From Siphonodentalium dalli (taxonomy: Eukaryota > Mollusca > Scaphopoda > Gadilida > Siphonodentaliidae): a DNA stretch of 64,000 bases. This document shows, one piece after another, positions 37,462-63,273 of the stretch (the first letter of the stretch is position 1; each line of letters opens with the position of its first letter). Below the pieces are notes generated by a model that worked only from the letters and a program-made list of their open reading frames with translations, searched no databases and was not told the origin of the DNA. The DNA lies in the NCBI GenBank assembly GCA_032622095.1, contig CP136067.1:99128707-99192706 (forward strand), read 5' to 3'. The position numbers and the translations under genes are program-made.

Positions 37462-37476
37462 AACTACATCATTTCT

Positions 37477-37718: not shown

Positions 37719-37827
37719 GAACGTGAATAGTGTGCCCTTATCGGGAGGAACTTATGTTTGAAGGTGACATGCTTGGATGTATAGGCTTAATTTAATCGAC
37801 ATTCAATATAATACATGCTATATATAG

Positions 37828-39590: not shown

Positions 39591-39599
39591 CGCGATTGA

Positions 39600-39709
39600 G
39601 TGAGACACGGGGATTTGTCGCCCGCTCGAGACCTGGAATGCACCCGAGGGCCGCCAGGCCCGAGGGTGACATTCCAGGTCGAGAGCGGCGACAAATCCCC
39701 GTGTCTCAC
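39600..39709. repeat. 110-bp near-perfect hairpin
   Basis: Arms begin GTGAGACACGGGGATTTGTC and are repeated as a complement with one- or two-base slips; the loop is about GCCA. Weaker inverted similarity extends outward (GTTATCGCCC against GGGTGACAAC). Copied at 50845-50954. Confidence 0.85.
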
Positions 39710-40439: not shown

Positions 40440-40625
40440 ACTAAAATATTCCCAAAACTTCCAAAATATCAAAACCCAAAAAAAAAATTCAAAACTTCCA
40501 AAAATTATTTTTTCCAAAAAATTTCAAAATCCCAAAACTTCCACAAAATTTCAAAATCCCCAAATTTCAAAAAAAGAAAAAATTTCAAAAACCCCCAAAA
40601 TTATTTCTCTAAAAAAAAAGTTTAA
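40440..40625. repeat. Low-complexity CAAAACTTCCAAAATTTC repeats
   Basis: Degenerate tandem 10-20 bp units (CCCAAAACTTCC, ATTTCAAAATCCC) close to the element terminus. Copied at about 51685-51870 and, inverted, at 60065-60250. Could be a subterminal repeat of the element. Confidence 0.7.
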
Positions 40626-40801
40626 ATAAAAAATTTATAACGAGTTTTCGGTTTCTGATAATCTCGATATTAAAATGTCGAATGTTAAATTATTTGCGTG
40701 TAATATCTTTCGTTATTTTTTTTTGTTCAACCAATGTTTCAATGTATTTATTAATCGATGTTTAGAAATAGCTTTATTGGACATTGTGACCATCGGTATG
40801 A

Positions 40802-41062
40802 ATGCATACATTCCAGTGTTTATCGGACGCAGTTCATACATATATAATTGTCATACCTGAAAATAGACACCATTACTCTTACATAAATAATAAAGAGCGT
40901 TTATTCTTTACACTCTCTATCCCAGATGAAGTTATTGAGTATATGACAGACATGTATTACCGTGAATTATTGGAAGTATTGAGATGTACTATCTTGAATC
41001 ACGAGCGGACAACCCCCCAGAATGAATTGTCATATTCGATGGAACATATTATGTACACGTAA
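40802..41062 (+). CDS. Small conserved ORF of the ATPase element, copy 1
   Basis: An 86-codon ORF with no recognised domain, kept open in all four copies in the window (also 44913-45173, 52046-52306, 59626-59886). It contains the stretch YINNKERLFFTLSIPDEV, acidic and hydrophobic residues and no cysteine motif. Openness in near-identical copies is weak evidence of selection. Upstream DNA (TTACTCTTAC...AAGAGCGTT) resembles that before the duplicated ORFs at 41806 and 42081. Confidence 0.35.
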   Translation: MHTFQCLSDAVHTYIIVIPENRHHYSYINNKERLFFTLSIPDEVIEYMTDMYYRELLEVLRCTILNHERTTPQNELSYSMEHIMYT

Positions 41063-41684
41063 TCACACACGACATTGTGGGTAACAATGTGTCTTTCACA
41101 CCTTGCTTTACCAAATGAATTCTATTATATTCCCGTTCACAAGTATATGCCATTCAGAAAACATATCGATTTAATGTCTGAGCAGAATTAGTTGTTTAAC
41201 GGGTTAGTATCAATTAAGGTTGATAAACTGTGTCATTGTTAGCATTAACACGATAATTAGTTATCCAAAACATGCATACATAATACGTCCAGGTCACTCA
41301 ATGATAGAAATTGCATCGGTGTCATTGTTATAACAACATTACGTAATAACCACTTATCATTCCATTCACACTTACGTTCATTTTGTATACCAAAAACTCC
41401 AGTTAGCACCGATGAGGTAACATTATATCACTGCTATTGTATCAGTTGATAGGTTCAGACAAGTTCGATGTTTAGAAATAGATAATAACAATTGTTAAAT
41501 GTGCAGATAACTGTATGTAGGCCTACCAGTGGATGAATAGTCTGCCGGAGAAGTACTGTGTAGACAGGTCTTGTCGGCAAGAGAGTCAGACGAGAAGTGA
41601 AGGCTCGGCTATTAAAACATAGTAATGCGATAGCGAACATCAAACGAGTCTGCGCACGCATATCTGTCAAAGGATACAATGGCA

Positions 41685-41767
41685 GTCATTGGTCAATTTA
41701 TCCCCGGTGTCAGCTCAGTACAATAACAGTCATTGGTCAATTTATCCCCGGTGTCAGCTCAGTACAC
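41685..41767. repeat. Tandem duplication, about 41 bp, two copies
   Basis: GTCATTGGTCAATTTATCCC followed by CGGTGTCAGCTCAGTACA occurs twice in direct orientation; also in the other arms. Confidence 0.85.
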
Positions 41768-41801
41768 AATCGGCACGAAGCCGGAGGTCATAATTACTCT
41801 T

Positions 41802-42361
41802 ACGAATGAAGAGCGTTGAACATATACGAAATTATTACACGAATGAACTGAAATTTATATTTCACATCTTACCAACAACAGATACAGACATAGTCATAGT
41901 GTTATACTATCTTACATGTACCCATGCTATGACATCATTCGAAGGGGCAATACACTCAAGGAGTTAAAGTGACACGAAACAAGGGACGTGATGTAATATT
42001 GGTGTTTGAATCTTAAAGGAACACAAGACACTCTAAAGGGACACTCATTATGAATGAATGTTAACAATACAAGCGCACGAATGAAGAGCGTTGAACATAT
42101 ACGAAATTACTACACGAATGAACTGAAATTTATATTTCACATCTTACCAACAACAGATACAGACATAGGCATAGTGTTATACTATCTTACATGTACCCAT
42201 GCTATGACATACTCAAAGGGGGATAATGCACGCACGGTGTGGAATGTTAAAATGACACGAAACAAGGGACGTGATGCAATATTGGTGTTTGAATATTAAA
42301 AGGAACACAAGACACTCTAAAGGGACACTCATTATGAATGAATGTTAACAATACAAGCGCA
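41802..42361 (+). repeat. Tandem duplication of a 275-bp ORF module
   Basis: Two units offset by 275 bp, both starting ACGAATGAAGAGCG and ending near AATACAAGCGCA. Each contains an ORF beginning MKSVEHIRNYYTNELKF. In unit 1 (41806-41967) it is cut at 53 codons after a divergent stretch; in unit 2 (42081-42299) it runs to 72 codons. Confidence 0.8.
42081..42299 (+). CDS. Small ORF of the ATPase element (second module), copy 1
   Basis: A 72-codon ORF without a known domain. The first 42 codons are almost unchanged from the upstream duplicate. Counterparts are 53325-53543 and 58389-58607 (minus). Convergent with the ATPase gene. Function unknown; coding status uncertain. Confidence 0.3.
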   Translation: MKSVEHIRNYYTNELKFIFHILPTTDTDIGIVLYYLTCTHAMTYSKGDNARTVWNVKMTRNKGRDAILVFEY

Positions 42362-42544
42362 GTGGTTGAAAGTTAAAATGACAGATCAATATTTAAGGGT
42401 CAAATTTTCGGGCACTTAATGCACCTTTTATCATTACGTATCGTTTCTCACTCTACAATTCCCAATAATCCACACACTCTCTCCCCCCAGCTTATAGATA
42501 TATAACGAAAACGAGAATATCATGTTGATGAAGTTTATTGAAAT

Positions 42545-44335
42545 TTAATCGTCCGAATTGTCATCACTTTCGTCAGAAGTGTCATATGTTACGTCCATGA
42601 ATTTTTCTAGCATCGGTTTGTACTTTAATATTAACATTTTCACTGCATCACATTCTCCATAACCATTATTCAAATATTTGTCGACTTTATCCATGACTCT
42701 GTTGTGCAGAGTCCCATTGCGCAGCTGCAGATACGATACTATTGTCCAAGCATAATCATTCATAAAGTGTATCATATCTTTACTTTTAAGGTCCTTGTCA
42801 GCTTGTTCTTTTGCTTCTGCGTCTTTCGAGCCATTTTCCTTATACGTGTCCACTTTATCACTCCATTCCTCACGTGTTTTATCTCTACTTTCATCACACA
42901 AACTTTTGAAGTATTCATCTTCATTCAATTTAATTTCCTTATTCTGACTATCATCCGGGTCCTCAGTTAATTTTCGTTTTAACTTATTTTCTTGACACCA
43001 GTTTTTTACGTGTCTCTGAACATCATAATGATCTGCGAACAAAAGCCCACAGTCATTACAAGGGTACGACATGTCTTCTCGAATGTCTATGTTTTGACGG
43101 CTCTTCTTATTAATTTCATCGAGCTCACCCGGTGGCCGTATGTCGTTAGTATAGTCATTATGTTGACCCTGGGGCACAATATAATTATATGTTATGCCCT
43201 TCTGTTGACCAGGGAGTTCTCTGTCATCATATTTCATCGCATTCTGTTGACCCTGGGTCTCAGTGTCTTTTGTATGTTTTTTCATCCCATTCTGTTCATC
43301 TGGGTGTTCTCTGTCTTTTTGGAGATTGTATTTCATGCCATTCCATTCACCCCTATGTTGGTTCGTGTCCTCTTTTAGTACATTCTGTCGCAGACGTAAT
43401 GTGTCCGGGGTTGCGGCTTTTAAATCCACCAGTAGGTAACCGTACGGTTCACTCGTCGCTTCCGAAAACTCTCGAACCATACGCTGAGGACATTCAGGAT
43501 ACATCTGTCTTGATAATGTTGAAATTAATCCCTTGTCGATTGGGTTATTGAACAATACCAAATATTGACAATTTCGTCGTTGCGTTGGATCTTTGTTGTA
43601 GTAGAAATTCTGGTTCAAACTTATCAAAGATAAGTTCAAATGGTGACTTCCTTCGGAATGCAAATCATTAACTCTCTGGTCTTTTGATGAAGTTTGCATC
43701 AAGTCATCGAGTATAACTAGATTTTTATACCGGGGGTTGATAAGAGAATCCAAGTTTGCTGGTATTCCTCGTATAAAGTTGACCTGAGGGGTGACGGTAT
43801 ACTTTAATTCGTCATATAGGGGCTGCCAATATTTATAAAACCATATTATTCTGTCAGGTGCGGGTGATATTTTTGAGGCAGACTTTTGTAGTAAGGTTTT
43901 CACGAAGTATGTCTTACCACAAGATGTCGGTCCACTTACACGTGGCGTGAATGGATGCTTGAAAATAAAATCTTCATGGACATTGGCCATTGGATCATCA
44001 AAGTAGGATGTTATGTCGCTTGGTGGCTGTTGTTGTGGTTGTTGTTGTTGTTGTTGTTGGTGGTGTTGTTGTTGTTGTTGTTGTTGTTGTTGGTGTTGTT
44101 GTTGTTGTTGTTGTTGTGGCTGATGATAATGTTGTTGTTGTTGTTGTTGTTGTGGCTGATGTGGCTGATGATACTGTTGTTGTTGTTGTTGTTGTTGGTG
44201 TTGGTGTTGCGGCTGATGATACTGTTGTTGTTGTTGTTGTTGTTGTTCTGAAGGTGTGTGTTTAACTTTGATATGACGCTTCAAACTATCTTGCCAAGCA
44301 TAGGCACTTAAGCACTCTTCACATTGATACTTCAT
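42545..44335 (-). CDS. Zinc finger-polyglutamine-A32/FtsK-like packaging ATPase, copy 1
   Basis: A 596-codon intronless gene. Residues 5-26 are a C2H2 finger (C-x2-C-x12-H-x4-H). About 31-104 is polyglutamine broken by YHQP, encoded almost only by CAA. About 125-320 is a P-loop ATPase with Walker A GPTSCGKT and Walker B LVILDD, followed by SLNQN and LVLFNNP strands as in A32-like (FtsK-HerA) packaging ATPases of Polintons and large DNA viruses. About 327-395 is a degenerate repeat (EQNGMK, QQNAMK, QQKGI). About 426-447 is a C2HC finger. The C-terminus is charged, ending SDESDDNSDD. A TATA-like sequence lies at 44380-44389 and a polyadenylation signal at 42534-42539, just after the stop. Differs from copies 2 and 3 at several residues (CLSAYAW, SYFDD, PRVSG). 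Family placement is by motif recognition. Confidence 0.8.
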   Translation of the reverse strand: MKYQCEECLSAYAWQDSLKRHIKVKHTPSEQQQQQQQQYHQPQHQHQQQQQQQQYHQPHQPQQQQQQQHYHQPQQQQQQQHQQQQQQQQQHHQQQQQQQPQQQPPSDITSYFDDPMANVHEDFIFKHPFTPRVSGPTSCGKTYFVKTLLQKSASKISPAPDRIIWFYKYWQPLYDELKYTVTPQVNFIRGIPANLDSLINPRYKNLVILDDLMQTSSKDQRVNDLHSEGSHHLNLSLISLNQNFYYNKDPTQRRNCQYLVLFNNPIDKGLISTLSRQMYPECPQRMVREFSEATSEPYGYLLVDLKAATPDTLRLRQNVLKEDTNQHRGEWNGMKYNLQKDREHPDEQNGMKKHTKDTETQGQQNAMKYDDRELPGQQKGITYNYIVPQGQHNDYTNDIRPPGELDEINKKSRQNIDIREDMSYPCNDCGLLFADHYDVQRHVKNWCQENKLKRKLTEDPDDSQNKEIKLNEDEYFKSLCDESRDKTREEWSDKVDTYKENGSKDAEAKEQADKDLKSKDMIHFMNDYAWTIVSYLQLRNGTLHNRVMDKVDKYLNNGYGECDAVKMLILKYKPMLEKFMDVTYDTSDESDDNSDD

Positions 44336-44379
44336 TTTCCTATATAATCAGTGAAATCGAGCGTTCTTCTATGCACCTA

Positions 44380-44389
44380 TATTTATATA
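44380..44389 (-). promoter_or_regulatory. TATA-like box of ATPase copy 1
   Basis: On the minus strand TATATAAATA lies about 45-55 bp before the ATG, followed by GAACGCTCG. The same arrangement precedes the other copies. Confidence 0.5.
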
Positions 44390-44543
44390 GAACAGAAACA
44401 AGGGAAACGTGGTGGACTAGTTAACTAGTGCAGGCTGTCGTTCACAACGTCTCTTAGTGTTGTTTGTACTGGATACAAATTTATCACATTAGCTACAATA
44501 CAACCTACCTATCCAAATGTCAATGCAATTATGAGTGATTTCA

Positions 44544-44903
44544 ATATGAACACTCTATTATATAGATATGTGTAACCTGGTGACTGACATGATGATACAG
44601 TTATGCACTAAATAATGGACTGCTTAACCACAGCAGAATTATAGGTAACTTTTCAGGAGTTAGTCGGAAATATGGCTTGTTGCCATTCATCGGAAAGCTC
44701 TCGACCCCGACGGCGGCGGCGGCACCACCGCCGCAGGCGCCGTCGAGAGCTTTCCGATGAATGGCAACAAGCCATATTTCCGACTAACTCCTGAAAAGTT
44801 ACCTATAATTCTGCTGTGGTTAAGCAGTCCATTATTTAGTGCATAACTGTATCATCATGTCAGTCACCAGGTTACACATATCTATATAATAGAGTGTTCA
44901 TAT
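44544..44903. repeat. 360-bp central palindrome with GC-rich core, copy 1
   Basis: Left and right halves are almost exact complements around 44724. The core is GC-rich (GACGGCGGCGGCGGCACCACC) and the outer arms AT-rich. In this copy the palindrome stops abruptly at 44903, where the right arm is deleted. Confidence 0.95.
44598..44849. mobile_element. mariner-type MITE-like core of the palindrome, copy 1
   Basis: Begins CAGTTATGCACTAAATAATG, ends with its complement, and is flanked by TA on both sides. The sequence from TTAACCACAGCAG through CATCGGAAA is closely similar to the solo MITE at 63123-63273, which ends in the same way with TA duplications. The GC-rich centre is extra relative to the solo MITE. 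Confidence 0.7.
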
Positions 44904-44912
44904 CGTGTGTGA

Positions 44913-45173
44913 TTACGTGTACATAATATGTTCCATCGAATATGACAATTCATTCTGGGGGGTTGTCCGCTCGTGATTCAAGATAGCACATCTCAATACT
45001 TCCAATAATTCACGGTAATACATGTCTGTCATATACTCAATAACTTCATCTGGGATAGAGAGTGTAAAGAATAAACGCTCTTTATTATTTATGTAAGAGT
45101 AATGGTGTCTATTTTCAGGTATGACAATTATATATGTATGAACTGCGTCCGATAAACACTGGAATGTATGCAT
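44913..45173 (-). CDS. Small ORF in right-arm remnant
   Basis: Copy of the 86-codon ORF, inverted. It has Ala where the forward copies have Thr (LRCAIL against LRCTIL), matching the right arm at 59626-59886. Confidence 0.3.
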   Translation of the reverse strand: MHTFQCLSDAVHTYIIVIPENRHHYSYINNKERLFFTLSIPDEVIEYMTDMYYRELLEVLRCAILNHERTTPQNELSYSMEHIMYT

Positions 45174-45224
45174 TCATACCGATGGTCACAATGTCCAATA
45201 AAGCTATTTCTAAACATCGATTAA

Positions 45225-47496
45225 TAAATCGATTCGATATAGCGCGAATAATAAATTGCCAGTCATATAATTTGCACGGTTAGAATCTGTGTGGCTTCAT
45301 CTTTCCAACGATATATAATATGTATGTATCCGTTTTAGTTATCTGCCTCAATTATTAGGTACAAGTGGTACGGGGATCTTTTATCAGGATAAAATCACTG
45401 CGTAACATCTATGACGTCGTCAGAGGTCATAAAGTTAGATTACGTTAACTCTCACCCTGCCGATGCATTTGACTGTGTCGCGTTAACTCATCACCGGCCG
45501 AGGTATCCGCAAATGACATTGGGCTATATATCTCGGAAACGGGTGTAGCTATCGACTTGAAATTTGGTATGTGAATGTATCTTGCCCCGGATACGAATTT
45601 TATCGGGTCGCCGAGCACGTGCGACGCCAGCTTCGCGCATGCGCAGACGAGATCTCGTAAACGGGTTGAGATATTGACTTTAAATTTGGTATGTGAATGT
45701 ATCTTGCCCCGGATACGAATTTTATCGGGTCGCCGAGCACGTGCGACACCAGCTTCGCGCATGCGCAGAACAGATCTAGGAAACGGGTGGAGCAATCGAC
45801 TTGAAATTTGGTTTTTTAATAGCCCGGACGAAGTCGGGTCACCTTCTAGTCTATTATATATTTTGAAAGATCTGTGTATGTGTTTGTTTGTGTGTTTGAA
45901 ATCGATGGACTCCAAAACGACTAAGCCAATTTCGATGAAATTTGGTATTTGGATGTGTTTTCGGCCGGAGACGAACATAGGCATATTTATTTGTCCGTGC
46001 GAGGTCAACGTTTCACGTGCGGAGGTCAAATCTATTTTTACGCCGTTTTTGCGCTAATATATTTCAGTTCGGTGCTCACAAATCGATTCGATATAGCGCG
46101 AATAATAAATTGCCAGTCATATAATTTGCACGGTTAGAATCTGTGTGGCTTCATCTTTCCAACGATATATAATATGTATGTATCCGTTTTAGTTATCTGC
46201 CTCAATTATTAGGTACAAGTGGTACGGGGATCTTTTATCAGGATAAAATCACTGCGTAACTTCTATGACGTCGTCAGATGTCATAAAGTTAGATTACGTT
46301 AACTCTCACCCTGCCGATGCATTTGACTGTGTCGCGTTAACTCATCACCGGCCGAGGTATCCGCAAATGACATTGGGCTATATATCTCGTAAACGGGTGT
46401 AGCTATCGACTTGAAATTTGGTATGTGAATGTATCTTGCCCCGGATACGAATTTTATCGGGTCGCCGAGCACGTGCGACACCAGCTTCGCGCATGCGCAG
46501 ACCAGATCTAGGAAACGGGTGGAGCAATCGACTTGAAATTTGGTTTTTTAATAGCCCGGACGAAGTCGGGTCACCTTCTAGTCTATTATATATTTTGAAA
46601 GATCTGTGTGTGTGTTTGTTTGTGTGTGTGTTTGAAATCGATGGACTCGAAAACGACTAAGCCAATTTCGATGAAATTTGGTATTTTAGGGTATTTTCGG
46701 CCGGAGACGAACATAGGCATATTTATTTGTCCGTGCGAGGTCAACTTTTCACGTGCGGAGGTCAAATCTATTTTTACGCCGTTTTGCGCTAATATATTTC
46801 AGTTCGGTGCTCACAAATCGATTCGATATAGCGCGAATAATAAATTGCCAGTCATATAATTTGCACGGTTAGAATCTGTGTGGCTTCATCTTTCCAACGA
46901 TATATAATATGTATGTATCCGTTTTAGTTATCTGCCTCAATTAATAGGGAGAAGTGGTACGATCTTTTATCAGGATAAAATCAATGCGTAACTTCTATGA
47001 CGTCGTTAGAGGTCATACAGTTAGATCACGTTAACTCTCACCCGGCCGATGCATTTGACTGTTTCAGACGTCTTGGCGATATCTCGGGCACCGATGGTAA
47101 TTTAGCTTTACGTTGAAACTTGATAATTAATGAGTGTGTGTATATGAGGCGCGTTTATATACTTCAGTGGAAATCAAATCTGGCGGATTTTTACGGACGA
47201 AATTAATTTGATGCATAGGGTATCTCGGTATCCGCTGGGCCGATTTCCCGGTATCCGCTGGGCCGATTTCCACCATTTTTGGGGTGTTGGTGTTTGACCC
47301 CACCTGACCTTGACCTTCAAAATGGTCAATTCAAGGTCAAATCGGGTAAAACCGGATGGATTTCGACGGGTACTTTTGTCGGGTACTTTTGTTCGGGCAG
47401 TGTTTTGGACGGGTCAAATCGTGACCCCACTTGACCTTGGCCTTCAAAATAGACAATTCAAGGTCAAACCCCGGACGAAGTCGGGTCACCTTCTAG
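45225..47496 (+). mobile_element. Second Helitron-like array (partial unit plus two units)
   Basis: Starts inside a unit (its CTAG at 45846-45849), then a 732-bp unit (45850-46581), then a 915-bp terminal unit (46582-47496) identical in type to 35337-36251. The 732-bp unit has a type-3 5' part and a single-subrepeat type-2 3' part, so it is a recombinant not found in the first array. Confidence 0.8.
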
Positions 47497-48493
47497 TATC
47501 ATATATACGGGCGTTAGCCAGAGTAGAGATTCATGGCATGTTCTAATTTCCATTATACTTCTAGTTGGGTTGGATACATTATGACAATCTGAACAGTTAT
47601 GTGAACTTTATTAAACTCACTTGGCCGTTTCCGCTCCACAATATATCTAAATAATATTTGCTATTGAATTTTTCCCGGTATTGAAATTCGTCGATAAATA
47701 CTTTAGTTACCTTTCTACGGTCATTATATGTCCCGCAAGAGAATTGAAGTAATAAAAATTACAAATTTGAACACGATATTTCGGAAATTGGGACCCAAAC
47801 AAAAAACAGCCGTACGCACGGCACGGAGTGTTCAGAGAAAAGCGTCCAGTACAGTCTATTCCTGATATGGTATACCATATATATAGAAGCAAAGAGCGTT
47901 TGCATTACATAATTTTTTTTTTTTTATATTACATTACATAACTGAGTCAAATAAAATTTATTATTTTATTCGTGTGATTATATTAGTTTCTGTTAAATTC
48001 AAGCCATGCCCTTCCAGAATTCCAGAAAACAAAATGAGAAATTCACACACAAAATGCGATATTATTACCTGAAATTGGCGTTTGAAATTCCTGACAGTGA
48101 AAGGCCTTAATTGTATGTCCAAAATCAATTTCTTTCAAGGTGAGCATAATTATAATCATTGAACTTATATACCTGTCTCATATTTCAGACTTTCTGTTCA
48201 TCTGTTATTCTACTCAATTTATAACTTATGTTGAATAAAGAACTGAATTGAATTGAATTGAAACATGCCAGTACGGACCCGCCCCGCCGAAAAACTGGCA
48301 ACGCCAATGACAGTCTATATGCACCACAGGTGGTGGGATTCACCCCAATTACCGAATTTATGGGACCATATTTTTCTCGAGGCCGATCTTCCGATATAAT
48401 ATGATAATCCAGCTGCGGCCGATATCTAACAGGAACAAAAATAAAATGATTATGACTTTAACGATGTTACCCACACCCAATTTCGGCAATTTC
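47497..48493. other. Gene-free flank, second copy
   Basis: Duplicate of 36252-37248; no gene. Confidence 0.45.
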
Positions 48494-48706
48494 TAATAAG
48501 CGATATCACTGAGTCGCTACCATATTGGATCCAGGCAGCCCTCATTCCGCGGTTTAAGTGCTACATATCTGGATTTCATGAATATTTAAAACTCCATATA
48601 TATGGAATGCTACTCCAGAACTTTGACCTGTAGCGCTGATATGAATGCGTGGAACGGGGATGGGTGGATCCAATATGGTTTAGCGACTCAGTGGTCTCGT
48701 TTATTA
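48494..48706. mobile_element. Palindromic MITE type 1, second copy
   Basis: Duplicate of 37249-37461 with isolated base changes. Confidence 0.75.
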
Positions 48707-48721
48707 AACTACATCATTTCT

Positions 48722-48963
48722 AATACGCCATGTCACTAACTCGCGGCCATATTCGATCCACCAGGTTCGATTCTGTGGTTTTACTTAGTTTTCCATATAT
48801 GGAAGTCATGAATAATTCAAAAGCTCCATATTTGGAAATGCTATACTCCAAAACTTTGACATGTAGCACTAAAACCACGGAACCGGGGCTGGATGAATCT
48901 TTGAAACCACGGAACCGGACCTGGTGGATCCAATATGGCCGCGAGTTAGTGACAGTGCGTATT
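48722..48963. mobile_element. Palindromic MITE type 2, second copy
   Basis: Duplicate of 37477-37718. Confidence 0.75.
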
Positions 48964-49072
48964 GAACGTGAATAGTGTGCCCTTATCGGGAGGAACTTAT
49001 GTTTGAAGGTGACATGCTTGGATGTATAGGCTTAATTTAATCGACATTCAATATAATACATGCTATATATAG

Positions 49073-50153
49073 TAGTGATGCGGACCGGACCGGACCACCT
49101 TGTGCACTGCCAAGGCGGTCCAGTCCCGTCCGGTCCAGGCCACTCCGGTCCGGTACACATGTATGGACCGGTCCAAAACGGTCCGGTCCACCTATAATAG
49201 GCTATATGTTAATGAATTCTGAAGTTTTTACTCTGTATAGTACAAACTATAAGGTTACTGAGTTCAGTGCATTGCAATGAGTCCATATATCTTAAAACTT
49301 ACATTGTTTGCCGGTTGTATGCATCATTGTCTGTCTCTGGTGGGATATACTGGGAACGATGCACGATAATAGTATTTCTAGTAATGCGAAAATGCACTAA
49401 TTAAATGTATTGGACAGATATATAGCTAGGGCCAGAATGTGTTATAACCAATCTAACATGGCACTCAACTGATCGTATGCATGATTCGTATCATACTTAT
49501 TTTCATTAAATTGACATTTAAACGAAATAACTATACTGATGACAATTATACAAATGTGTACTAATATGACTACTACATTACTATTGGAGTCTTGGATATT
49601 GTGATGGCAGATTGTATAGTCCTGACAATTTACAGTTATATACCTAAGTACAACTACTATTGAATTAATGTGACTGTCTTGTGTATGTACTATGTAATGT
49701 GATTTGCATGTTTCTTCGATAATTATAACTGTGAAAAACAATAGAATACTCGATTCATTATCCATCCAAATTGATTAGTTGATGCCATGTTACACTGTTT
49801 ATGACAAATAGTTCCATACTCATGCAGTTGCATGTTTGTCGCATTGATAGGATGCTACATAGTGTTGGCCAGTGTTACTCTATATACTAATACATTTTAA
49901 GGAAAGTGACATGTACAAAGTACATCTATACATTGTTTTCGTGGCATCAAATGTTTTATAGATATTAACCACTTGAATGCGTCAATACATCGTTGCTAAT
50001 ATGCAATAATATTCGCGATAGTTTATTATAACTGAAGTAAAATAGTGGACCGGACCGGAGAGTACCGGACCGGCGGCAAAAAGCGGTCCGGTCCGGTCCA
50101 GTGACACCCGGTCCGGACCGGACCGGTCCAAAGCGGTCCGGTCCGCATCACTA
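49073..50153. mobile_element. hAT-like element, second copy
   Basis: Duplicate of 37828-38908, including the flanking 8-mers. Confidence 0.7.
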
Positions 50154-50844
50154 CTATATAGGCCTTTATTATCAAAGTCCAATGTACATTATATTAGTGG
50201 GGTATAGATTAATAACAAAATTGTTCACTTTATGACTAAAGCATGAAATTGTGCATGCAGGTACAAATTCACATACTTATTGATTTTAGATTTGGATCCA
50301 CACTGAAGGGGTTTTCAGAATTTAAAGTGCATTTAGTAATTATATAAAATATTAAATGTCACAATTAATCGTACCATGGAATGTGCTATTTGAAAGTATG
50401 CCTCTGTGACATATTTTTCAGAATTATATTGTCATCAGACAAGGTCTGCTGGGTACAGTTACGATCAAAATATTTAACATTGAAACCAATGGAGATATTC
50501 ACGGTTTGTCCAAATACTCGTTGTGACATCACTTATTGGTAAGCATATTTCTATACTCTATTGCGAAAACGGCTCTGATGTGTAACCGGTTGTAACTATA
50601 GGAGTGATTTCATAAAGGCAAAAAACAATATAGTTATGCCACCAGATACAGTAATAAACAATATTATGGGACAAATGGCTCAGTAATATTGTCCAATATA
50701 AAGTATAATGATCAATGCTTACCGAGACTGAAGTTTTATGATACGGTTATAAAGTTGATGATATTTGTTAACAATTGATAACATTGTTAACCATCTCTAT
50801 ACTAAATATTTGGTGAGTATTATACAGTTATCGCCCGCGATTGA
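50154..50844. other. Gene-free stretch, second copy
   Basis: Duplicate of 38909-39599; no gene. Confidence 0.45.
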
Positions 50845-50954
50845 GTGAGACACGGGGATTTGTCGCCCGCTCGAGACCTGGAATGCACCCGAGGGCCGCC
50901 AGGCCCGAGGGTGACATTCCAGGTCGAGAGCGGCGACAAATCCCCGTGTCTCAC
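50845..50954. repeat. 110-bp hairpin, second copy
   Basis: Duplicate of 39600-39709. Confidence 0.85.
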
Positions 50955-52045
50955 GAAAACAAGGGTGACAACTGTTTTGTTCTCTGACAAAGGAGTACAC
51001 ACGAAGCTTCTCAATGGCATGCCTATAAGTACGCGTGTATATTCATTAATCCAGCTCAATTTAAAGAGTTAATTTTATGTTGGAATCCTCGCTTTTAGAA
51101 AATAAAACGTTCATATTTTGGATCAATTGATGAACCCGTCATTTGCGGAGCTATTGTCCGGTTAGTTTGCTGGTCACATGGTGAGAATCGGTTCACGGAA
51201 GGAGGAGTAAAGCAATTTCGAAGTAGATTAGCCATGCGGCGAAAGGTTCAGTGTCGTTTTAAATGAACGTAATGACGCAGGTAGACGTGTTAATTTCGAG
51301 AACGCTAAAATGTGAAACTTGGTGCCAAAATAAATTGACAACATAATGGTATTCCTGTGAAGTCGGAGGAATGTATAACCGAAGACAATTATCGATTGAT
51401 AAATAGTGAAGAGTGGCTATTTGATATTTAGAGCTTAGTACAGAAACGTATTTGTGACGAATGAACATCGTGTGTGCAATTCAAATTAGCAAACACCACA
51501 GTGGGGTTTATAAAATGCGTGTTTTCGGAAATTGTTAGAGAGCTGTGATGTAATCTCTGTGCGTTGAGTTCTTCGTAGTTCTATGTTTACTGGCAACATC
51601 TGAGCGGTCCATAACTGCCAGAAGAATAGGAGGCTCGTTGGATCCACTTCTAAAAATAGAATCTTTGGGTCTAAAATTGGTTGTACTAAAATATTCCCAA
51701 AACTTCCAAAATATCAAAACCCAAAAAAAAATTTCAAAACTTCCAAAAATTATTTTTTCCAAAAAATTTCAAAATCCCAAAACTTCCACAAAATTTCAAA
51801 ATCCCCAAATTTCAAAAAAAGAAAAAATTTCAAAAACCCCCAAAATTATTTCTCTAAAAAAAAAGTTTAAATAAAAAATTTATAACGAGTTTTCGGTTTC
51901 TGATAATCTCGATATTAAAATGTCGAATGTTAAATTATTTGCGTGTAATATCTTTCGTTATTTTTTTTGTTCAACCAATGTTTCAATGTATTTATTAATC
52001 GATGTTTAGAAATAGCTTTATTGGACATTGTGACCATCGGTATGA

Positions 52046-52306
52046 ATGCATACATTCCAGTGTTTATCGGACGCAGTTCATACATATATAATTGTCATAC
52101 CTGAAAATAGACACCATTACTCTTACATAAATAATAAAGAGCGTTTATTCTTTACACTCTCTATCCCAGATGAAGTTATTGAGTATATGACAGACATGTA
52201 TTACCGTGAATTATTGGAAGTATTGAGATGTACTATCTTGAATCACGAGCGGACAACCCCCCAGAATGAATTGTCATATTCGATGGAACATATTATGTAC
52301 ACGTAA
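52046..52306 (+). CDS. Small conserved ORF of the ATPase element, left arm
   Basis: 86 codons, same as 40802-41062 (Thr variant). Confidence 0.35.
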   Translation: MHTFQCLSDAVHTYIIVIPENRHHYSYINNKERLFFTLSIPDEVIEYMTDMYYRELLEVLRCTILNHERTTPQNELSYSMEHIMYT

Positions 52307-53324
52307 TCACACACGACATTGTGGGTAACAATGTGTCTTTCACACCTTGCTTTACCAAATGAATTCTATTATATTCCCGTTCACAAGTATATGCCATTCA
52401 GAAAACATATCGATTTAATGTCTGAGCAGAATTAGTTGTTTAACGGGTTAGTATCAATTAAGGTTGATAAACTGTGTCATTGTTAGCATTAACACGATAA
52501 TTAGTTATCCAAAACATGCATACATAATACGTCCAGGTCACTCAATGATAGAAATTGCATCGGTGTCATTGTTATAACAACATTACGTAATAACCACTTA
52601 TCATTCCATTCACACTTACGTTCATTTTGTATACCAAAAACTCCAGTTAGCACCGATGAGGTAACATTATATCACTGCTATTGTATCAGTTGATAGGTTC
52701 AGACAAGTTCGATGTTTAGAAATAGATAATAACAATTGTTAAATGTGCAGATAACTGTATGTAGGCCTACCAGTGGATGAATAGTCTGCCGGAGAAGTAC
52801 TGTGTAGACAGGTCTTGTCGGTAAGAGAGTCAGACGAGAAGTGAAGGCTCGGCTATTAAAACATAGTAATGCGATAGCGAACATCAAACGAGTCTGCGCA
52901 CGCATATCTGTCAAAGGATACAATGGCAGTCATTGGTCAATTTATCCCCGGTGTCAGCTCAGTACAATAACAGTCATTGGTCAATTTATCCCCGGTGTCA
53001 GCTCAGTACACAATCGGCACGAAGCCGGAGGTCATAATTACTCTTACGAATGAAGAGCGTTGAACATATACGAAATTATTACACGAATGAACTGAAATTT
53101 ATATTTCACATCTTACCAACAACAGATACAGACATAGTCATAGTGTTATACTATCTTACATGTACCCATGCTATGACATCATTCGAAGGGGCAATACACT
53201 CAAGGAGTTAAAGTGACACGAAACAAGGGACGTGATGTAATATTGGTGTTTGAATCTTAAAGGAACACAAGACACTCTAAAGGGACACTCATTATGAATG
53301 AATGTTAACAATACAAGCGCACGA

Positions 53325-53543
53325 ATGAAGAGCGTTGAACATATACGAAATTACTACACGAATGAACTGAAATTTATATTTCACATCTTACCAACAACAG
53401 ATACAGACATAGGCATAGTGTTATACTATCTTACATGTACCCATGCTATGACATACTTAAAGGGGGATAATGCACGCACGGTGTGGAATGTTAAAATGAC
53501 ACGAAACAAGGGACGTGATGCAATATTGGTGTTTGAATATTAA
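53325..53543 (+). CDS. Small ORF, second module, left arm
   Basis: Copy of 42081-42299 with one visible residue change (Ser to Leu). The shortened tandem duplicate lies at 53050-53211. Confidence 0.3.
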   Translation: MKSVEHIRNYYTNELKFIFHILPTTDTDIGIVLYYLTCTHAMTYLKGDNARTVWNVKMTRNKGRDAILVFEY

Positions 53544-53788
53544 AAGGAACACAAGACACTCTAAAGGGACACTCATTATGAATGAATGTTAACAATACAA
53601 GCGCAGTGGTTGAAAGTTAAAATGACAGATCAATATTTAAGGGTCAAATTTTCGGGCACTTAATGCACCTTTTATCATTACGTATCGTTTCTCACTCTAC
53701 AATTCCCAATAATCCACACACTCTCTCCCCCCAGCTTATAGATATATAACGAAAACGAGAATATCATGTTGATGAAGTTTATTGAAAT

Positions 53789-55576
53789 TTAATCGTCCGA
53801 ATTGTCATCACTTTCGTCAGAAGTGTCATATGTTACGTCCATGAATTTTTCTAGCATCGGTTTGTACTTTAATATTAACATTTTCACTGCATCACATTCT
53901 CCATAACCATTATTCAAATATTTGTCGACTTTATCCATGACTCTGTTGTGCAGAGTCCCATTGCGCAGCTGCAGATACGATACTATTGTCCAAGCATAAT
54001 CATTCATAAAGTGTATCATATCTTTACTTTTAAGGTCCTTGTCAGCTTGTTCTTTTGCTTCTGCGTCTTTCGAGCCATTTTCCTTATACGTGTCCACTTT
54101 ATCACTCCATTCCTCACGTGTTTTATCTCTACTTTCATCACACAAACTTTTGAAGTATTCATCTTCATTCAATTTAATTTCCTTATTCTGACTATCATCC
54201 GGGTCCTCAGTTAATTTTCGTTTTAACTTATTTTCTTGACACCAGTTTTTTACGTGTCTCTGAACATCATAATGATCTGCGAACAAAAGCCCACAGTCAT
54301 TACAAGGGTACGACATGTCTTCTCGAATGTCTATGTTTTGACGGCTCTTCTTATTAATTTCATCGAGCTCACCAGGTGGCCGTATGTCGTTAGTATAGTC
54401 ATTATGTTGACCCTGGGGCACAATATAATTATATGTTATGCCCTTCTGTTGACCAGGGAGTTCTCTGTCATCATATTTCATCGCATTCTGTTGACCCTGG
54501 GTCTCAGTGTCTTTTGTATGTTTTTTCATCCCATTCTGTTCATCTGGGTGTTCTCTGTCTTTTTGGAGATTGTATTTCATGCCATTCCATTCACCCCTAT
54601 GTTGGTTCGTGTCCTCTTTTAGTACATTCTGTCGCAGACGTAATGTGTCCGGGGTTGCGGCTTTTAAATCCACCAGTAGGTAACCGTACGGTTCACTCGT
54701 CGCTTCCGAAAACTCTCGAACCATACGCTGAGGACATTCAGGATACATCTGTCTTGATAATGTTGATATTAATCCCTTGTCGATTGGGTTATTGAACAAT
54801 ACCAAATATTGACAATTTCGTCGTTGCGTTGGATCTTTGTTGTAGTAGAAATTCTGGTTCAAACTTATCAAAGATAAGTTCAAATGGTGACTTCCTTCGG
54901 AATGCAAATCATTAACTCTCTGGTCTTTTGATGAAGTTTGCATCAAGTCATCGAGTATAACTCGATTTTTATACCGGGGGTTGATAAGAGAATCCAAGTT
55001 TGCTGGTATTCCTCGTATAAAGTTGACCTGAGGGGTGACGGTATACTTTAATTCGTCATATAGGGGCTGCCAATATTTATAAAACCATATTATTCTGTCA
55101 GGTGCGGGTGATATTTTTGAGGCAGACTTTTGTAGTAAGGTTTTCACGAAGTATGTCTTACCACAAGATGTCGGTCCACTTACACATGGCGTGAATGGAT
55201 GCTTGAAAATAAAATCTTCATGGACATTGGCCATTGGATCATCAAAGCAGGATGTTATGTCGCTTGGTGGCTGTTGTTGTGGTTGTTGTTGTTGTTGTTG
55301 TTGGTGGTGTTGTTGTTGTTGTTGTTGTTGTTGTTGGTGTTGTTGTTGTTGTTGTTGTTGTGGCTGATGATAATGTTGTTGTTGTTGTTGTTGTTGTTGT
55401 GGCTGATGTGGCTGATGATACTGTTGTTGTTGTTGTTGTTGTTGGTGTTGGTGTTGCGGCTGATGATACTGTTGTTGTTGTTGTTGTTCTGAAGGTGTGT
55501 GTTTAACTTTGATATGACGCTTCAAACTATCTTGCCAAGCATAGACTCTTAAGCACTCTTCACATTGATACTTCAT
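53789..55576 (-). CDS. Zinc finger-polyglutamine-A32/FtsK-like ATPase, copy 2 (left arm)
   Basis: A 595-codon gene with the same architecture as copy 1. The glutamine tract differs by CAA-unit gains and losses. It shares CLRVYAW, SCFDD and PCVSG with copy 3 rather than with copy 1, although copy 1 is its counterpart in the segmental duplication. Its Walker B strand reads NRVILDD where the others have NLVILDD; an arginine in this buried hydrophobic strand could harm ATPase function. TATA-like and polyadenylation signals are placed as in the other copies. Confidence 0.8.
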   Translation of the reverse strand: MKYQCEECLRVYAWQDSLKRHIKVKHTPSEQQQQQQYHQPQHQHQQQQQQQQYHQPHQPQQQQQQQQHYHQPQQQQQQQHQQQQQQQQQHHQQQQQQQPQQQPPSDITSCFDDPMANVHEDFIFKHPFTPCVSGPTSCGKTYFVKTLLQKSASKISPAPDRIIWFYKYWQPLYDELKYTVTPQVNFIRGIPANLDSLINPRYKNRVILDDLMQTSSKDQRVNDLHSEGSHHLNLSLISLNQNFYYNKDPTQRRNCQYLVLFNNPIDKGLISTLSRQMYPECPQRMVREFSEATSEPYGYLLVDLKAATPDTLRLRQNVLKEDTNQHRGEWNGMKYNLQKDREHPDEQNGMKKHTKDTETQGQQNAMKYDDRELPGQQKGITYNYIVPQGQHNDYTNDIRPPGELDEINKKSRQNIDIREDMSYPCNDCGLLFADHYDVQRHVKNWCQENKLKRKLTEDPDDSQNKEIKLNEDEYFKSLCDESRDKTREEWSDKVDTYKENGSKDAEAKEQADKDLKSKDMIHFMNDYAWTIVSYLQLRNGTLHNRVMDKVDKYLNNGYGECDAVKMLILKYKPMLEKFMDVTYDTSDESDDNSDD

Positions 55577-55784
55577 TTTCCTATATAATCAGTGAAATCG
55601 AGCGTTCTTCTATGCACCTATATTTATATAGAACAGAAACAAGGGAAACGTGGTGGACTAGTTAACTAGTGCAGGCTGTCGTTCACAACGTCTCTTAGTG
55701 TTGTTTGTACTGGATACAAATTTATCACATTAGCTACAATACAACCTACCTATCCAAATGTCAATGCAATTATGAGTGATTTCA

Positions 55785-56144
55785 ATATGAACACTCTATT
55801 ATATAGATATGTGTAACCTGGTGACTGACATGATGATACAGTTATGCACTAAATAATGGACTGCTTAACCACAGCAGAATTATAGGTAACTTTTCAGGAG
55901 TTAGTCGGAAATATGGCTTGTTGCCATTTATCGGAAAGCTCTCGACCCCGACGGCGGCGGCGGCACCACCGCCGCAGGTGCCGTCGAGAGCTTTCCGATG
56001 AATGGCAACAAGCCATATTTCCGACTAACTCCTGAAAAGTTACCTATAATTCTGCTGTGGTTAAGCAGTCCATTATTTAGTGCATAACTGTATCATCATG
56101 TCAGTCACCAGGTTACACATATCTATATAATAGAGTGTTCATAT
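55785..56144. repeat. Central palindrome of the complete dimer
   Basis: Same as 44544-44903. Here the inverted symmetry continues outward through both arms to the element ends. The embedded mariner-type core is at 55839-56090. Confidence 0.95.
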
Positions 56145-56298
56145 TGAAATCACTCATAATTGCATTGACATTTGGATAGGTAGGTTGTATTGTAGCTAAT
56201 GTGATAAATTTGTATCCAGTACAAACAACACTAAGAGACGTTGTGAACGACAGCCTGCACTAGTTAACTAGTCCACCACGTTTCCCTTGTTTCTGTTC

Positions 56299-56308
56299 TA
56301 TATAAATA
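56299..56308 (+). promoter_or_regulatory. TATA-like box of ATPase copy 3
   Basis: TATATAAATA lies 45-54 bp upstream of the ATG at 56353, followed by GAACGCTCGATTTCACTG. A short 5' leader would be expected. Confidence 0.5.
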
Positions 56309-56352
56309 TAGGTGCATAGAAGAACGCTCGATTTCACTGATTATATAGGAAA

Positions 56353-56534
56353 ATGAAGTATCAATGTGAAGAGTGCTTAAGAGTCTATGCTTGGCAAGAT
56401 AGTTTGAAGCGTCATATCAAAGTTAAACACACACCTTCAGAACAACAACAACAACAACAACAACAGTATCATCAGCCGCAACACCAACACCAACAACAAC
56501 AACAACAACAACAGTATCATCAGCCACATCAGCC

Positions 56535-56570
<36 letters not shown>

Positions 56571-58143
56571 TTATCATCAGCCACAACAACAACAACAACA
56601 ACACCAACAACAACAACAACAACAACAACACCACCACCAACAACAACAACCACAACAACAGCCACCAAGCGACATAACATCCTGCTTTGATGATCCAATG
56701 GCCAATGTCCATGAAGATTTTATTTTCAAGCATCCATTCACGCCATGTGTAAGTGGACCGACATCTTGTGGTAAGACATACTTCGTGAAAACCTTACTAC
56801 AAAAGTCTGCCTCAAAAATATCACCCGCACCTGACAGAATAATATGGTTTTATAAATATTGGCAGCCCCTATATGACGAATTAAAGTATACCGTCACCCC
56901 TCAGGTCAACTTTATACGAGGAATACCAGCAAACTTGGATTCTCTTATCAACCCCCGGTATAAAAATCTAGTTATACTCGATGACTTGATGCAAACTTCA
57001 TCAAAAGACCAGAGAGTTAATGATTTGCATTCCGAAGGAAGTCACCATTTGAACTTATCTTTGATAAGTTTGAACCAGAATTTCTACTACAACAAAGATC
57101 CAACGCAACGACGAAATTGTCAATATTTGGTATTGTTCAATAACCCAATCGACAAGGGATTAATTTCAACATTATCAAGACAGATGTATCCTGAATGTCC
57201 TCAGCGTATGGTTCGAGAGTTTTCGGAAGCGACGAGTGAACCGTACGGTTACCTACTGGTGGATTTAAAAGCCGCAACCCCGGACACATTACGTCTGCGA
57301 CAGAATGTACTAAAAGAGGACACGAACCAACATAGGGGTGAATGGAATGGCATGAAATACAATCTCCAAAAAGACAGAGAACACCCAGATGAACAGAATG
57401 GGATGAAAAAACATACAAAAGACACTGAGACCCAGGGTCAACAGAATGCGATGAAATATGATGACAGAGAACTCCCTGGTCAACAGAAGGGCATAACATA
57501 TAATTATATTGTGCCCCAGGGTCAACATAATGACTATACTAACGACATACGGCCACCTGGTGAGCTCGATGAAATTAATAAGAAGAGCCGTCAAAACATA
57601 GACATTCGAGAAGACATGTCGTACCCTTGTAATGACTGTGGGCTTTTGTTCGCAGATCATTATGATGTTCAGAGACACGTAAAAAACTGGTGTCAAGAAA
57701 ATAAGTTAAAACGAAAATTAACTGAGGACCCGGATGATAGTCAGAATAAGGAAATTAAATTGAATGAAGATGAATACTTCAAAAGTTTGTGTGATGAAAG
57801 TAGAGATAAAACACGTGAGGAATGGAGTGATAAAGTGGACACGTATAAGGAAAATGGCTCGAAAGACGCAGAAGCAAAAGAACAAGCTGACAAGGACCTT
57901 AAAAGTAAAGATATGATACACTTTATGAATGATTATGCTTGGACAATAGTATCGTATCTGCAGCTGCGCAATGGGACTCTGCACAACAGAGTCATGGATA
58001 AAGTCGACAAATATTTGAATAATGGTTATGGAGAATGTGATGCAGTGAAAATGTTAATATTAAAGTACAAACCGATGCTAGAAAAATTCATGGACGTAAC
58101 ATATGACACTTCTGACGAAAGTGATGACAATTCGGACGATTAA
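56353..58143 (+). CDS. Zinc finger-polyglutamine-A32/FtsK-like ATPase, copy 3 (right arm)
   Basis: A 596-codon intronless gene. C2H2 finger C5, C8, H21, H26; polyglutamine with YHQP breaks about 31-104; P-loop ATPase about 125-320 with Walker A at 135-142 and Walker B LVILDD at 206-211; linker repeat of about 17 residues at 327-395; C2HC finger C426, C429, H442, C447; acidic tail. In A32-like proteins this fold drives packaging of DNA into virions. The flanking fingers suggest binding to the element DNA, but that is inference. Both key ATPase motifs are intact, so this copy looks the most functional. The ATG context is GGAAAATGA. An alternative is a domesticated host DNA-translocating protein. 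Confidence 0.85.
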
Positions 58144-58148
58144 ATTTC

Positions 58149-58154
58149 AATAAA
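58149..58154 (+). promoter_or_regulatory. Polyadenylation signal of ATPase copy 3
   Basis: AATAAA begins six bases after the stop codon, giving an extremely short 3' end typical of compact mobile or viral genes. Confidence 0.55.
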
Positions 58155-58388
58155 CTTCATCAACATGATATTCTCGTTTTCGTTATATATCTATAAGCTG
58201 GGGGGAGAGAGTGTGTGGATTATTGGGAATTGTAGAGTGAGAAACGATACGTAATGATAAAAGGTGCATTAAGTGCCCGAAAATTTGACCCTTAAATATT
58301 GATCTGTCATTTTAACTTTCAACCACTGCGCTTGTATTGTTAACATTCATTCATAATGAGTGTCCCTTTAGAGTGTCTTGTGTTCCTT

Positions 58389-58607
58389 TTAATATTCAAA
58401 CACCAATATTGCATCACGTCCCTTGTTTCGTGACATTTTAACATTCCACACCGTGCGTGCATTATCCCCCTTTAAGTATGTCATAGCATGGGTACATGTA
58501 AGATAGTATAACACTATGCCTATGTCTGTATCTGTTGTTGGTAAGATGTGAAATATAAATTTCAGTTCATTCGTGTAGTAATTTCGTATATGTTCAACGC
58601 TCTTCAT
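58389..58607 (-). CDS. Small ORF, second module, right arm
   Basis: Inverted copy of 53325-53543 with one visible change (Thr to Ser). The shortened duplicate is at 58721-58882. Confidence 0.3.
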   Translation of the reverse strand: MKSVEHIRNYYTNELKFIFHILPTTDTDIGIVLYYLTCTHAMTYLKGDNARTVWNVKMSRNKGRDAILVFEY

Positions 58608-59625
58608 TCGTGCGCTTGTATTGTTAACATTCATTCATAATGAGTGTCCCTTTAGAGTGTCTTGTGTTCCTTTAAGATTCAAACACCAATATTACATCAC
58701 GTCCCTTGTTTCGTGTCACTTTAACTCCTTGAGTGTATTGCCCCTTCGAATGATGTCATAGCATGGGTACATGTAAGATAGTATAACACTATGACTATGT
58801 CTGTATCTGTTGTTGGTAAGATGTGAAATATAAATTTCAGTTCATTCGTGTAATAATTTCGTATATGTTCAACGCTCTTCATTCGTAAGAGTAATTATGA
58901 CCTCCGGCTTCGTGCCGATTGTGTACTGAGCTGACACCGGGGATAAATTGACCAATGACTGTTATTGTACTGAGCTGACACCGGGGATAAATTGACCAAT
59001 GACTGCCATTGTATCCTTTGACAGATATGCGTGCGCAGACTCGTTTGATGTTCGCTATCGCATTACTATGTTTTAATAGCCGAGCCTTCACTTCTCGTCT
59101 GACTCTCTTACCGACAAGACCTGTCTACACAGTACTTCTCCGGCAGACTATTCATCCACTGGTAGGCCTACATACAGTTATCTGCACATTTAACAATTGT
59201 TATTATCTATTTCTAAACATCGAACTTGTCTGAACCTATCAACTGATACAATAGCAGTGATATAATGTTACATCATCGGTGCTAACTGGAGTTTTTGGTA
59301 TACAAAATGAACGTAAGTGTGAATGGAATGATAAGTGGTTATTACGTAATGTTGTTATAACAATGACACCGATGCAATTTCTATCATTGAGTGACCTGGA
59401 CGTATTATGTATGCATGTTTTGGATAACTAATTATCGTGTTAATGCTAACAATGACACAGTTTATCAACCTTAATTGATACTAACCCGTTAAACAACTAA
59501 TTCTGCTCAGACATTAAATCGATATGTTTTCTGAATGGCATATAATTGTGAACGGGAATATAATAGAATTCATTTGGTAAAGCAAGGTGTGAAAGACACA
59601 TTGTTACCCACAATGTCGTGTGTGA

Positions 59626-59886
59626 TTACGTGTACATAATATGTTCCATCGAATATGACAATTCATTCTGGGGGGTTGTCCGCTCGTGATTCAAGATAGC
59701 ACATCTCAATACTTCCAATAATTCACGGTAATACATGTCTGTCATATACTCAATAACTTCATCTGGGATAGAGAGTGTAAAGAATAAACGCTCTTTATTA
59801 TTTATGTAAGAGTAATGGTGTCTATTTTCAGGTATGACAATTATATATGTATGAACTGCGTCCGATAAACACTGGAATGTATGCAT
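59626..59886 (-). CDS. Small conserved ORF of the ATPase element, right arm
   Basis: 86 codons, Ala variant shared with the remnant at 44913-45173. Confidence 0.35.
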   Translation of the reverse strand: MHTFQCLSDAVHTYIIVIPENRHHYSYINNKERLFFTLSIPDEVIEYMTDMYYRELLEVLRCAILNHERTTPQNELSYSMEHIMYT

Positions 59887-60444
59887 TCATACCGATGGTC
59901 ACAATGTCCAATAAAGCTATTTCTAAACATCGATTAATAAATACATTGAAACATTGGTTGAACAAAAAAAATAACGAAAGATATTACACGCAAATAATTT
60001 AACATTCGACATTTTAATATCGAGATTATCAGAAACCGAAAACTCGTTATAAATTTTGTATTTAAACTTTTTTTTTAGAGAAATAATTTTGGGGGTTTTT
60101 GAAATTTTTTCTTTTTTTGAAATTTGGGGATTTTGAAATTTTTTGGAAGTTTTGGGATTTTGAAATTTTTTGGAAAAAATAATTTTTGGAAGTTTTGAAA
60201 TTTTTTTTTGGGTTTTGATATTTTGGAAGTTTTGGGAATATTTTAGTACAACCAATTTTAGACCCAAAGATTCTATTTTTAGAAGTGGATCCAACGAGCC
60301 TCCTATTCTTCTACTGCCGAAATGTTTCCCTCGAGGGTAACAAGTGATTTGCGGTCCGCAATGTGACGCAACCTCAGCCAATCAGAAGAGAGGAAAATGG
60401 GATGAAGATAACAATATTACTTAGGACATGTTCAGATACTCAGT

Positions 60445-60844
60445 TTAACCCTTTACCCACCAAACCGGCCAAAACCGGCCAAATAAAGCTTCAACAGCCT
60501 AAAATATCTTCGGTCTGTCTCAATAGAACCATACAAATATGGATATCATTGGAACCGGCTCCTTGACCACATTGTGATAGTTACAGTTATGCCCTGTGCC
60601 AATGCATTCTCTTATATATGCGAGTCGACCATAGGTCGCCTCGCATATATAAGAGAATGCATTGGCCTAAAAAAAATATGTTTTTAACACTTTTTACCAT
60701 TTTTTCTTACATTCTTTAACAATTTTATAATTTGTAATGTGTTAAGCCAATGCATGCTCTTATATATGCGAGGCGACCTATGGTCGACTCGCATATATAA
60801 GAGAATGCATTGGCACAGGGCCGTTCTGTTGGGTAAAGGTTTAA
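60445..60844. mobile_element. piggyBac-like TTAA element with paired hairpins (copy F)
   Basis: TTAA at 60445-60448 and 60841-60844; ends CCCTTTACCCACCA and TGTTGGGTAAAGG. Nearly base-for-base like copy C (hairpins at about 60594-60668 and 60747-60820), so both are recent. It lies 126 bp beyond the right target duplication of the dimer element. Confidence 0.85.
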
Positions 60845-63122: not shown

Positions 63123-63273
63123 CAGTAATGCCCAAAATAATTGACCCCTTAACCACAGCAGTATTATGGTGTAATTTTCAGGATTTAGTCGGAAATATGG
63201 CTTGTTGCTATTCATCGGAAAAAATACCCATAATTCTGCTGTGGTTAGTGGTCAATTGCTTTGGGCATTACTG
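63123..63273. mobile_element. Solo mariner-type MITE related to the dimer palindrome core
   Basis: 151 bp, CAGTAATGCCCAAA...TTTGGGCATTACTG, flanked by TA on both sides (63121-63122, 63274-63275). The half from TTAACCACAGCAG to CATCGGAAA matches each half of the palindrome at 44544 and 55785. Confidence 0.85.

Follow-up and report, generated by a model that had tools for sequence, protein, structure and literature searches.

The replication of Polintons, also called Mavericks (Polintovirus), as free linear DNA is inferred from their genes, and protein-primed strand displacement is the replication mode expected from a Polinton-type PolB. The hairpin plasmid of Kikuchi et al. 1985, which comes from a yeast killer plasmid, is reportedly a palindromic (hairpin) deletion derivative of a protein-primed linear replicon, with one end duplicated. 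In this work, an 8.7-kb palindrome with Polinton-like ends was analyzed in a 64-kb stretch of contig CP136067.1 of the scaphopod Siphonodentalium dalli (64,000 nucleotides in full, called the window). The palindrome is inserted in a chromosome, whereas the yeast plasmid is said to be cytoplasmic. The origin that we favor, with about half of our confidence behind it, is a single insertion event: a bivalve Polinton (Maverick) would have given rise, by fold-back, to a defective molecule that is a palindrome of one of its ends, and this molecule would then have been inserted.

Intact vertebrate Mavericks are 12,723–24,620 bp long with terminal repeats of 46–1447 bp; their common end motifs are (AG)3 and (AGT)2, a third type is (AC)3A, and their particles are so far unobserved (PMC8097293). 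Compared with the sizes given in that source, the present element is short (8.7 kb vs. 12.7–24.6 kb), and its 4.3-kb arms are far longer than those terminal repeats. It resembled Polintons in three respects: an A32/FtsK-type packaging ATPase, AG...CT inverted termini, and a 6-bp flanking duplication, the last seen at one locus. It differed from them in that neither PolB nor an RVE integrase was detected within it among the best tblastn matches.

Adeno-associated virus (AAV) forms snap-back defective genomes: one end is kept, the rest is lost, and the genome is folded on itself as a head-to-head dimer (PMC8235507). The same arrangement, a one-end palindrome with a loop at the dyad, was found here. 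The first-pass annotation of the window had considered a reduced element in inverted-dimer form to be undescribed. AAV provides a precedent for the form; for a Polinton, a literature search on Polintons and Mavericks (most subscription journals lying outside its scope) found no palindromic derivative among the titles and abstract openings listed. AAV is a parvovirus with rolling-hairpin replication, and its snap-back genomes were seen in particles, whereas the element here is inserted; the passages of the source that describe these genomes place no miniature inverted-repeat transposable element (MITE) at the turn, where one is present in our element (PMC8235507). Foldback-type transposons such as Galileo also consist largely of long inverted repeats, but Galileo is grouped with the P element, and its ends are internally repetitive (PMC3573991), whereas the arm of the present element carries a virus-type ATPase.

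Palindrome, ATPase gene, and Polinton relatives

The palindrome occupied positions 51620–60312. Its left arm (51620–55947, forward strand) starts with AGAAGAATAG, and its right arm (55984–60312, reverse strand) terminates with ATTCTTCT. Between them, at the dyad, lies a 36-bp spacer with 86% GC (55948–55983). The arms had been described as complements about position 55966. The palindrome is real, but the arms are near-identical and not exact: alignment of 51620–55965 with the reverse complement of 55967–60312 gave 4315 identities, 16 mismatches, and 5 gaps, and the spacer is imperfectly complementary. Eight of the mismatches were in the arm bodies and 6 in the final 15 bp, at the dyad; a polyglutamine (polyQ) tract and the MITE arm had 1 each. 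Four of the gaps (9, 3, 9, and 6 bp) were in the polyQ tract, and the fifth, of 3 bp, was at the dyad.

The termini of the palindrome are AG...CT, and the element begins with AGAAGA. Symmetry stopped exactly at ACTGCC, a putative target site duplication with its left copy at 51614–51619 and its right copy at 60313–60318; the flanks beyond were unrelated. Both the termini and the flanking repeat were as stated in the first-pass annotation, and the probability of 1/4096 given there for a 6-bp match was close to the value of 3.3e-4 calculated from the base composition of the window. The position of the match was fixed beforehand by the end of symmetry. The evidence as a whole comes from one locus and one independent insertion.

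The two divergent packaging-ATPase genes noted earlier were two copies of a single gene, read outward from the center and encoding a C2H2-finger/A32-type packaging ATPase. The left copy (53789–55576, reverse strand) encodes 595 aa and has an L-to-R change beside an ILDD motif, which we take to be Walker B-like. The right copy (56353–58143, forward strand) encodes 596 aa and matched Pox_A32 with 24.5 bits, above the Pfam cut-off of 22.8. The earlier assignment of this protein to the A32-type ATPases of Polintons was upheld by the Pox_A32 match and by relatives carrying Polinton-neighbor domains. A direct duplication is also present inside the arm (53046–53605, forward strand; 276 and 285 bp, 91.6% alike) and is mirrored at 58327–58886.

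In the structure model of the ATPase, 200 of the 596 residues were below pLDDT 50. Foldseek with the whole model found no match at E ≤ 0.001 in the PDB or the viral library, the best PDB row by E being Rho (E 0.084). VIA-align ranked a packaging NTPase at the top for the same model, with Z 7.8, a middling value according to the note of the tool. By sequence, the only match of the ATPase among solved structures was a zinc finger (E 0.09).

Three ATPase frames were compared, the third being that of the broken copy described below. They differed by 6 nonsynonymous and 2 synonymous changes; the neutral expectation for the nonsynonymous share was 0.80 (p = 0.66), a comparison that informs only on the time since insertion. 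Because the change counts match the expectation without selection, the frames look like passengers since insertion, in an element that is decaying.

Homologs of the ATPase were searched with residues 112–350 only, and 177 proteins were obtained from 466 candidates at E ≤ 0.001. Among the best 120 of the 177, the matches that named an organism were bivalve in 21 of 22 cases and a bacterial metagenome-assembled genome (MAG) in 1. Six proteins among the same 120 carried precomputed Polinton-neighbor domains: an integrase core (P0083), a chromodomain (P0057, P0063, P0068, and P0112), and an adenovirus endoprotease (P0045). Rescans of P0083, P0057, and P0045 reproduced their integrase, chromodomain, and protease assignments. 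A fourth fused model that was rescanned, P0081, has an HTH_psq domain and was not counted as Polinton evidence. The fused gene models suggest that those genes are neighbors.

A search of prokaryote contigs gave 36 stretches and one confirmed locus, L001 (1–5687, on a 5.7-kb contig), filed as a MAG of a Bathymodiolus (mussel) symbiont. It contains an ATPase relative with 48% identity, read rightward. On the opposite strand, 1580–1825 matched positions 375–433 of the 468-position DNA_pol_B_2 profile (E 8e-5, below the Pfam cut-off). The ATPase and this PolB-like piece would be arranged head-to-head, because the C-terminal part of PolB lies far from the ATPase. The pieces between the ATPase and the PolB match are unnamed by Pfam and presumably belong to PolB as well. 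Searched by sequence against solved structures, the PolB-like piece had no match at E ≤ 1. Because some relatives of the ATPase are fused, in gene models, to a retroviral-type integrase, a chromodomain, or an adenovirus-type protease, and one adjoins a PolB-like piece, its membership in a bivalve Polinton family is supported. L001 itself is a broken Polinton-like stretch in a bacterial assembly and is probably mussel or other animal DNA.

The usual polymerase, integrase, and capsid genes had been reported as absent from the element. For integrase and PolB, tblastn agreed with this. Seven ATPase relatives, integrase-bearing ones included, were used for the integrase (at most the 12 best matches per query), and the matches listed inside the palindrome were all in the ATPase gene. 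Five pieces of the PolB region of L001 gave, among the best 20 matches, E 0.99 at a zinc finger as the best value in the palindrome and E 0.28 as the best in the whole window. For capsid and protease, the claim reaches as far as the Pfam scans of six small open reading frames (ORFs), the only scans that cover these two; none of the six reached a Pfam cut-off for these or other families. Two small ORFs, of 86 and 81 aa, were also searched for homologs and had none. Given these two results, the small ORFs were not treated as genes.

MITE at the dyad and the broken second copy

Two features of the locus had been overlooked in the first-pass annotation, a MITE at the dyad and a partial second copy of the element at 40375–45229. 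The dyad lies within a 252-bp hairpin (55839–56090), bounded by CAGT...ACTG and then by TA at either side; we take it to be the remnant of a Tc1/mariner-type MITE. In agreement with such a MITE, it is a short TA-flanked hairpin with no long ORF and with relatives. One of these, a 151-bp sister in the window (63123–63273, forward strand) with TA on both sides and a like layout, was used to interpret the dyad.

The halves of the sister are unlike each other, and its 44-bp interior is unmirrored. Against the left half plus interior of the sister, the two halves of the dyad MITE had 87 and 88 identities in 101 columns; against the right half, the value was 70 in 104. With the outer 60 bp only, each dyad half scored 88 against the left half of the sister and 73 against the right half. 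Unlike in an ordinary MITE of this type, both dyad halves match one half of the sister. The pattern is what the making of a mirror inside the MITE, next to the 36-bp GC-rich spacer, would leave. Later insertion of the MITE at the exact dyad was considered and rejected; it would have had to hit one TA in about 8.4 kb.

The second copy (copy 1; the full palindrome is copy 2) lies in a segmental duplication. Positions 34391–44903 and 45652–56144 were 99.48% identical over 10.5 kb, and the duplicated segment comprises satellite, unique flank, left arm, and dyad. In copy 1, the left arm and dyad (40375–44725, forward strand) include an ATPase ORF of 596 aa (42545–44335, reverse strand; ATG at 44333–44335). 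They are followed by the first 178 bp of the right arm (44726–44903, reverse strand), which end in a junction with a 1-bp overlap as read by eye. From there the sequence jumps to an outer right-arm fragment (44904–45229, reverse strand; arm positions about 697–371), which joins the satellite at 45226 with the 4-bp overlap AAAT. The right arm of copy 1 is thereby short of about 3.5 kb internally and of its last 370 bp. Copy 1 was rejected as a second independent insertion, its left flank and satellite being in common with the main copy. The term "mobile unit" used earlier received no support from the window, where the one other copy found is a product of local segmental duplication, left flank included.

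Six arm-body bases, at positions 170, 255, 613, 768, 1041, and 1880, were common to both left arms and different in the right arm. Further differences of this kind were found in the polyQ tract (one) and at the dyad (six). The outer fragment of copy 1 has the right-arm base at its sole informative site, arm position 613. Because both left arms share bases and this fragment keeps the right-arm base, these sites give an order of events: the palindrome formed first, its arms then diverged, and the local duplication, in which most of a right arm was lost, came last.

Origin of the palindrome

In the favored origin, the spacer that precedes the packaging ATPase of a Polinton would have held a hairpin MITE of the Tc1/mariner type. 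During replication, the ATPase half would have turned back at the MITE/GC-rich hairpin, and the nascent strand would have been copied onto itself, with loss of everything beyond the MITE, PolB included. An intact Polinton would have provided in trans the integrase that inserted the molecule, now with two identical Polinton ends, and the 6-bp duplication would stem from this step. We infer these three steps and their order. Decay would have followed, and then a microhomology-joined rearrangement that duplicated flank, left arm, and dyad alongside. Fold-back before insertion accounts for the 6-bp repeat and for the exact end of symmetry. It also accounts for the position of the dyad directly upstream of the ATPase, where PolB sits in L001. 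Insertion of the dimer as a unit had been proposed earlier; the insertion is indeed palindromic over its whole length, but formation before and after insertion are not distinguished by this locus. Packaging as an inverted dimer, also proposed, was not borne out.

Several observations weigh against this origin. The terminal sequence, AGAAGA, departs from both (AG)3 and (AGT)2. No integrase appeared, among the matches listed, in the 2.2 kb that separate the ATPase from the element end, although integrase follows the ATPase in some relatives; either the gene order of this Polinton differs or more was lost. The PolB match of L001 had 22.1 bits against a cut-off of 25.8, and the gene is broken. The dyad may also derive from a subfamily of MITEs with long hairpins that were symmetric from the start. 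The dyad MITE halves score alike by necessity, because they are near-identical to each other, and the right-hand TA adds no evidence, because mirroring produces it anyway. Finally, no relative was confirmed in the viral contig collection, though host loci are not expected there: the ATPase protein gave 5 pattern-matching stretches and an alignment search gave 6, with 0 confirmed in each case, and the 18-bp element end had 0 matches.

The main rival is formation in place, which we consider rather unlikely. A full-length Polinton would have been inserted with ACTGCC, and a break in its right half would later have been repaired from the left half, which would have turned the right half into its mirror. 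Copying would have begun with the right terminal repeat paired to its left counterpart and stopped in the MITE, and the 6-bp repeat would have been kept. This route would end in an identical structure, with the MITE at its dyad and the 6-bp repeat outside, and telling the two origins apart needs other loci. Homology for the repair is available from the terminal inverted repeats and the hairpin MITE, and the adjoining rearranged copy shows that break-and-copy events have occurred at the locus. However, one-sided conversion over 4.3 kb is required, and no trace of the original right half was seen. Inverted duplication by the host after insertion of a half-element was rejected, since the host flank would be mirrored too and the flanks differ. 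For the same reason, an assembly artifact (palindromic chimeric read or haplotype collapse) is highly improbable, as read-through would also mirror the host flank and the flanks differ outside the 6-bp repeat. Moreover, the two left arms agree with each other at 6 sites that set left apart from right, and the broken copy repeats the right-arm base at 1 site.

Palindromes and satellites are nevertheless hard to assemble, and the left arms of the two copies differed at 11 sites in about 4330 (8 private to copy 1 and 3 to copy 2), while their unique flanks differed at 2 in about 5225. Per base, the left arms diverged about six times more (p = 0.005, with approximate denominators). Further copies that donated sequence by gene conversion, or errors of base calling within the palindrome, may account for this excess. 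A foldback-type non-autonomous Polinton family, with inverted repeats grown to fill the element and frequent movement by helper Polintons, is improbable, though less so than an artifact. Such a family would agree with the intact ends, the 6-bp repeat, and the ATPase frames open in all three gene-bearing arms, and very long inverted repeats are known in foldback elements (PMC3573991). The sole other copy in the window, however, is the segmental duplication with the same flank, and the ATPase substitutions look neutral for the period since insertion.

If fold-back before insertion is correct, the one-end palindrome with its Polinton-type 6-bp duplication is a fossil of a free linear Polinton molecule, and Polintons join parvoviruses and linear plasmids as makers of snap-back defective genomes. 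The fold-back origin gives a clear prediction that is testable in existing bivalve long-read genomes. A further proposal is tentative, and we regard it as doubtful: Polintons may have their own defective-interfering satellites, palindromic, with two identical ends and the ATPase only, which full Polintons would copy and insert in trans; host read-through would yield a kilobase hairpin RNA against the parent. If so, the insertion is a snapshot of a replication intermediate, and it would show an extrachromosomal replication of Polintons in linear form, with the terminal repeats as ends.

Surrounding sequence

The window reads as animal DNA, with a Toll-receptor-type TIR gene, satellites, and MITEs. 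The Toll-receptor-like gene (23280–25198) consists of two overlapping frames and is apparently frameshifted. No family was matched by the first frame in the domain scan. The second (24110–25198) contains a TIR domain (PF01582, E 5e-14); its leucine-rich repeat matches were below the cut-offs. A tandem satellite with nested periods of 122 bp, about 746–916 bp, and 2516 bp is present at 28289–35869 and 45226–47062, broken up by the unique flank and copy 1.

An inverted repeat of about 0.8 kb (18217–19028 and 21343–22155, 87% alike), with a related stretch at 8067–8747, is possibly another terminal-inverted-repeat element. A hairpin repeat family (GCCAATGCATTCTCTTATATATGCGAG...), often paired, was found at 2504, 2597, 5048, 5144, 12840, 12989, 16625, 22274, 60590, and 60738; within this family, 12691–13095 and 60441–60844 were 97.5% alike.

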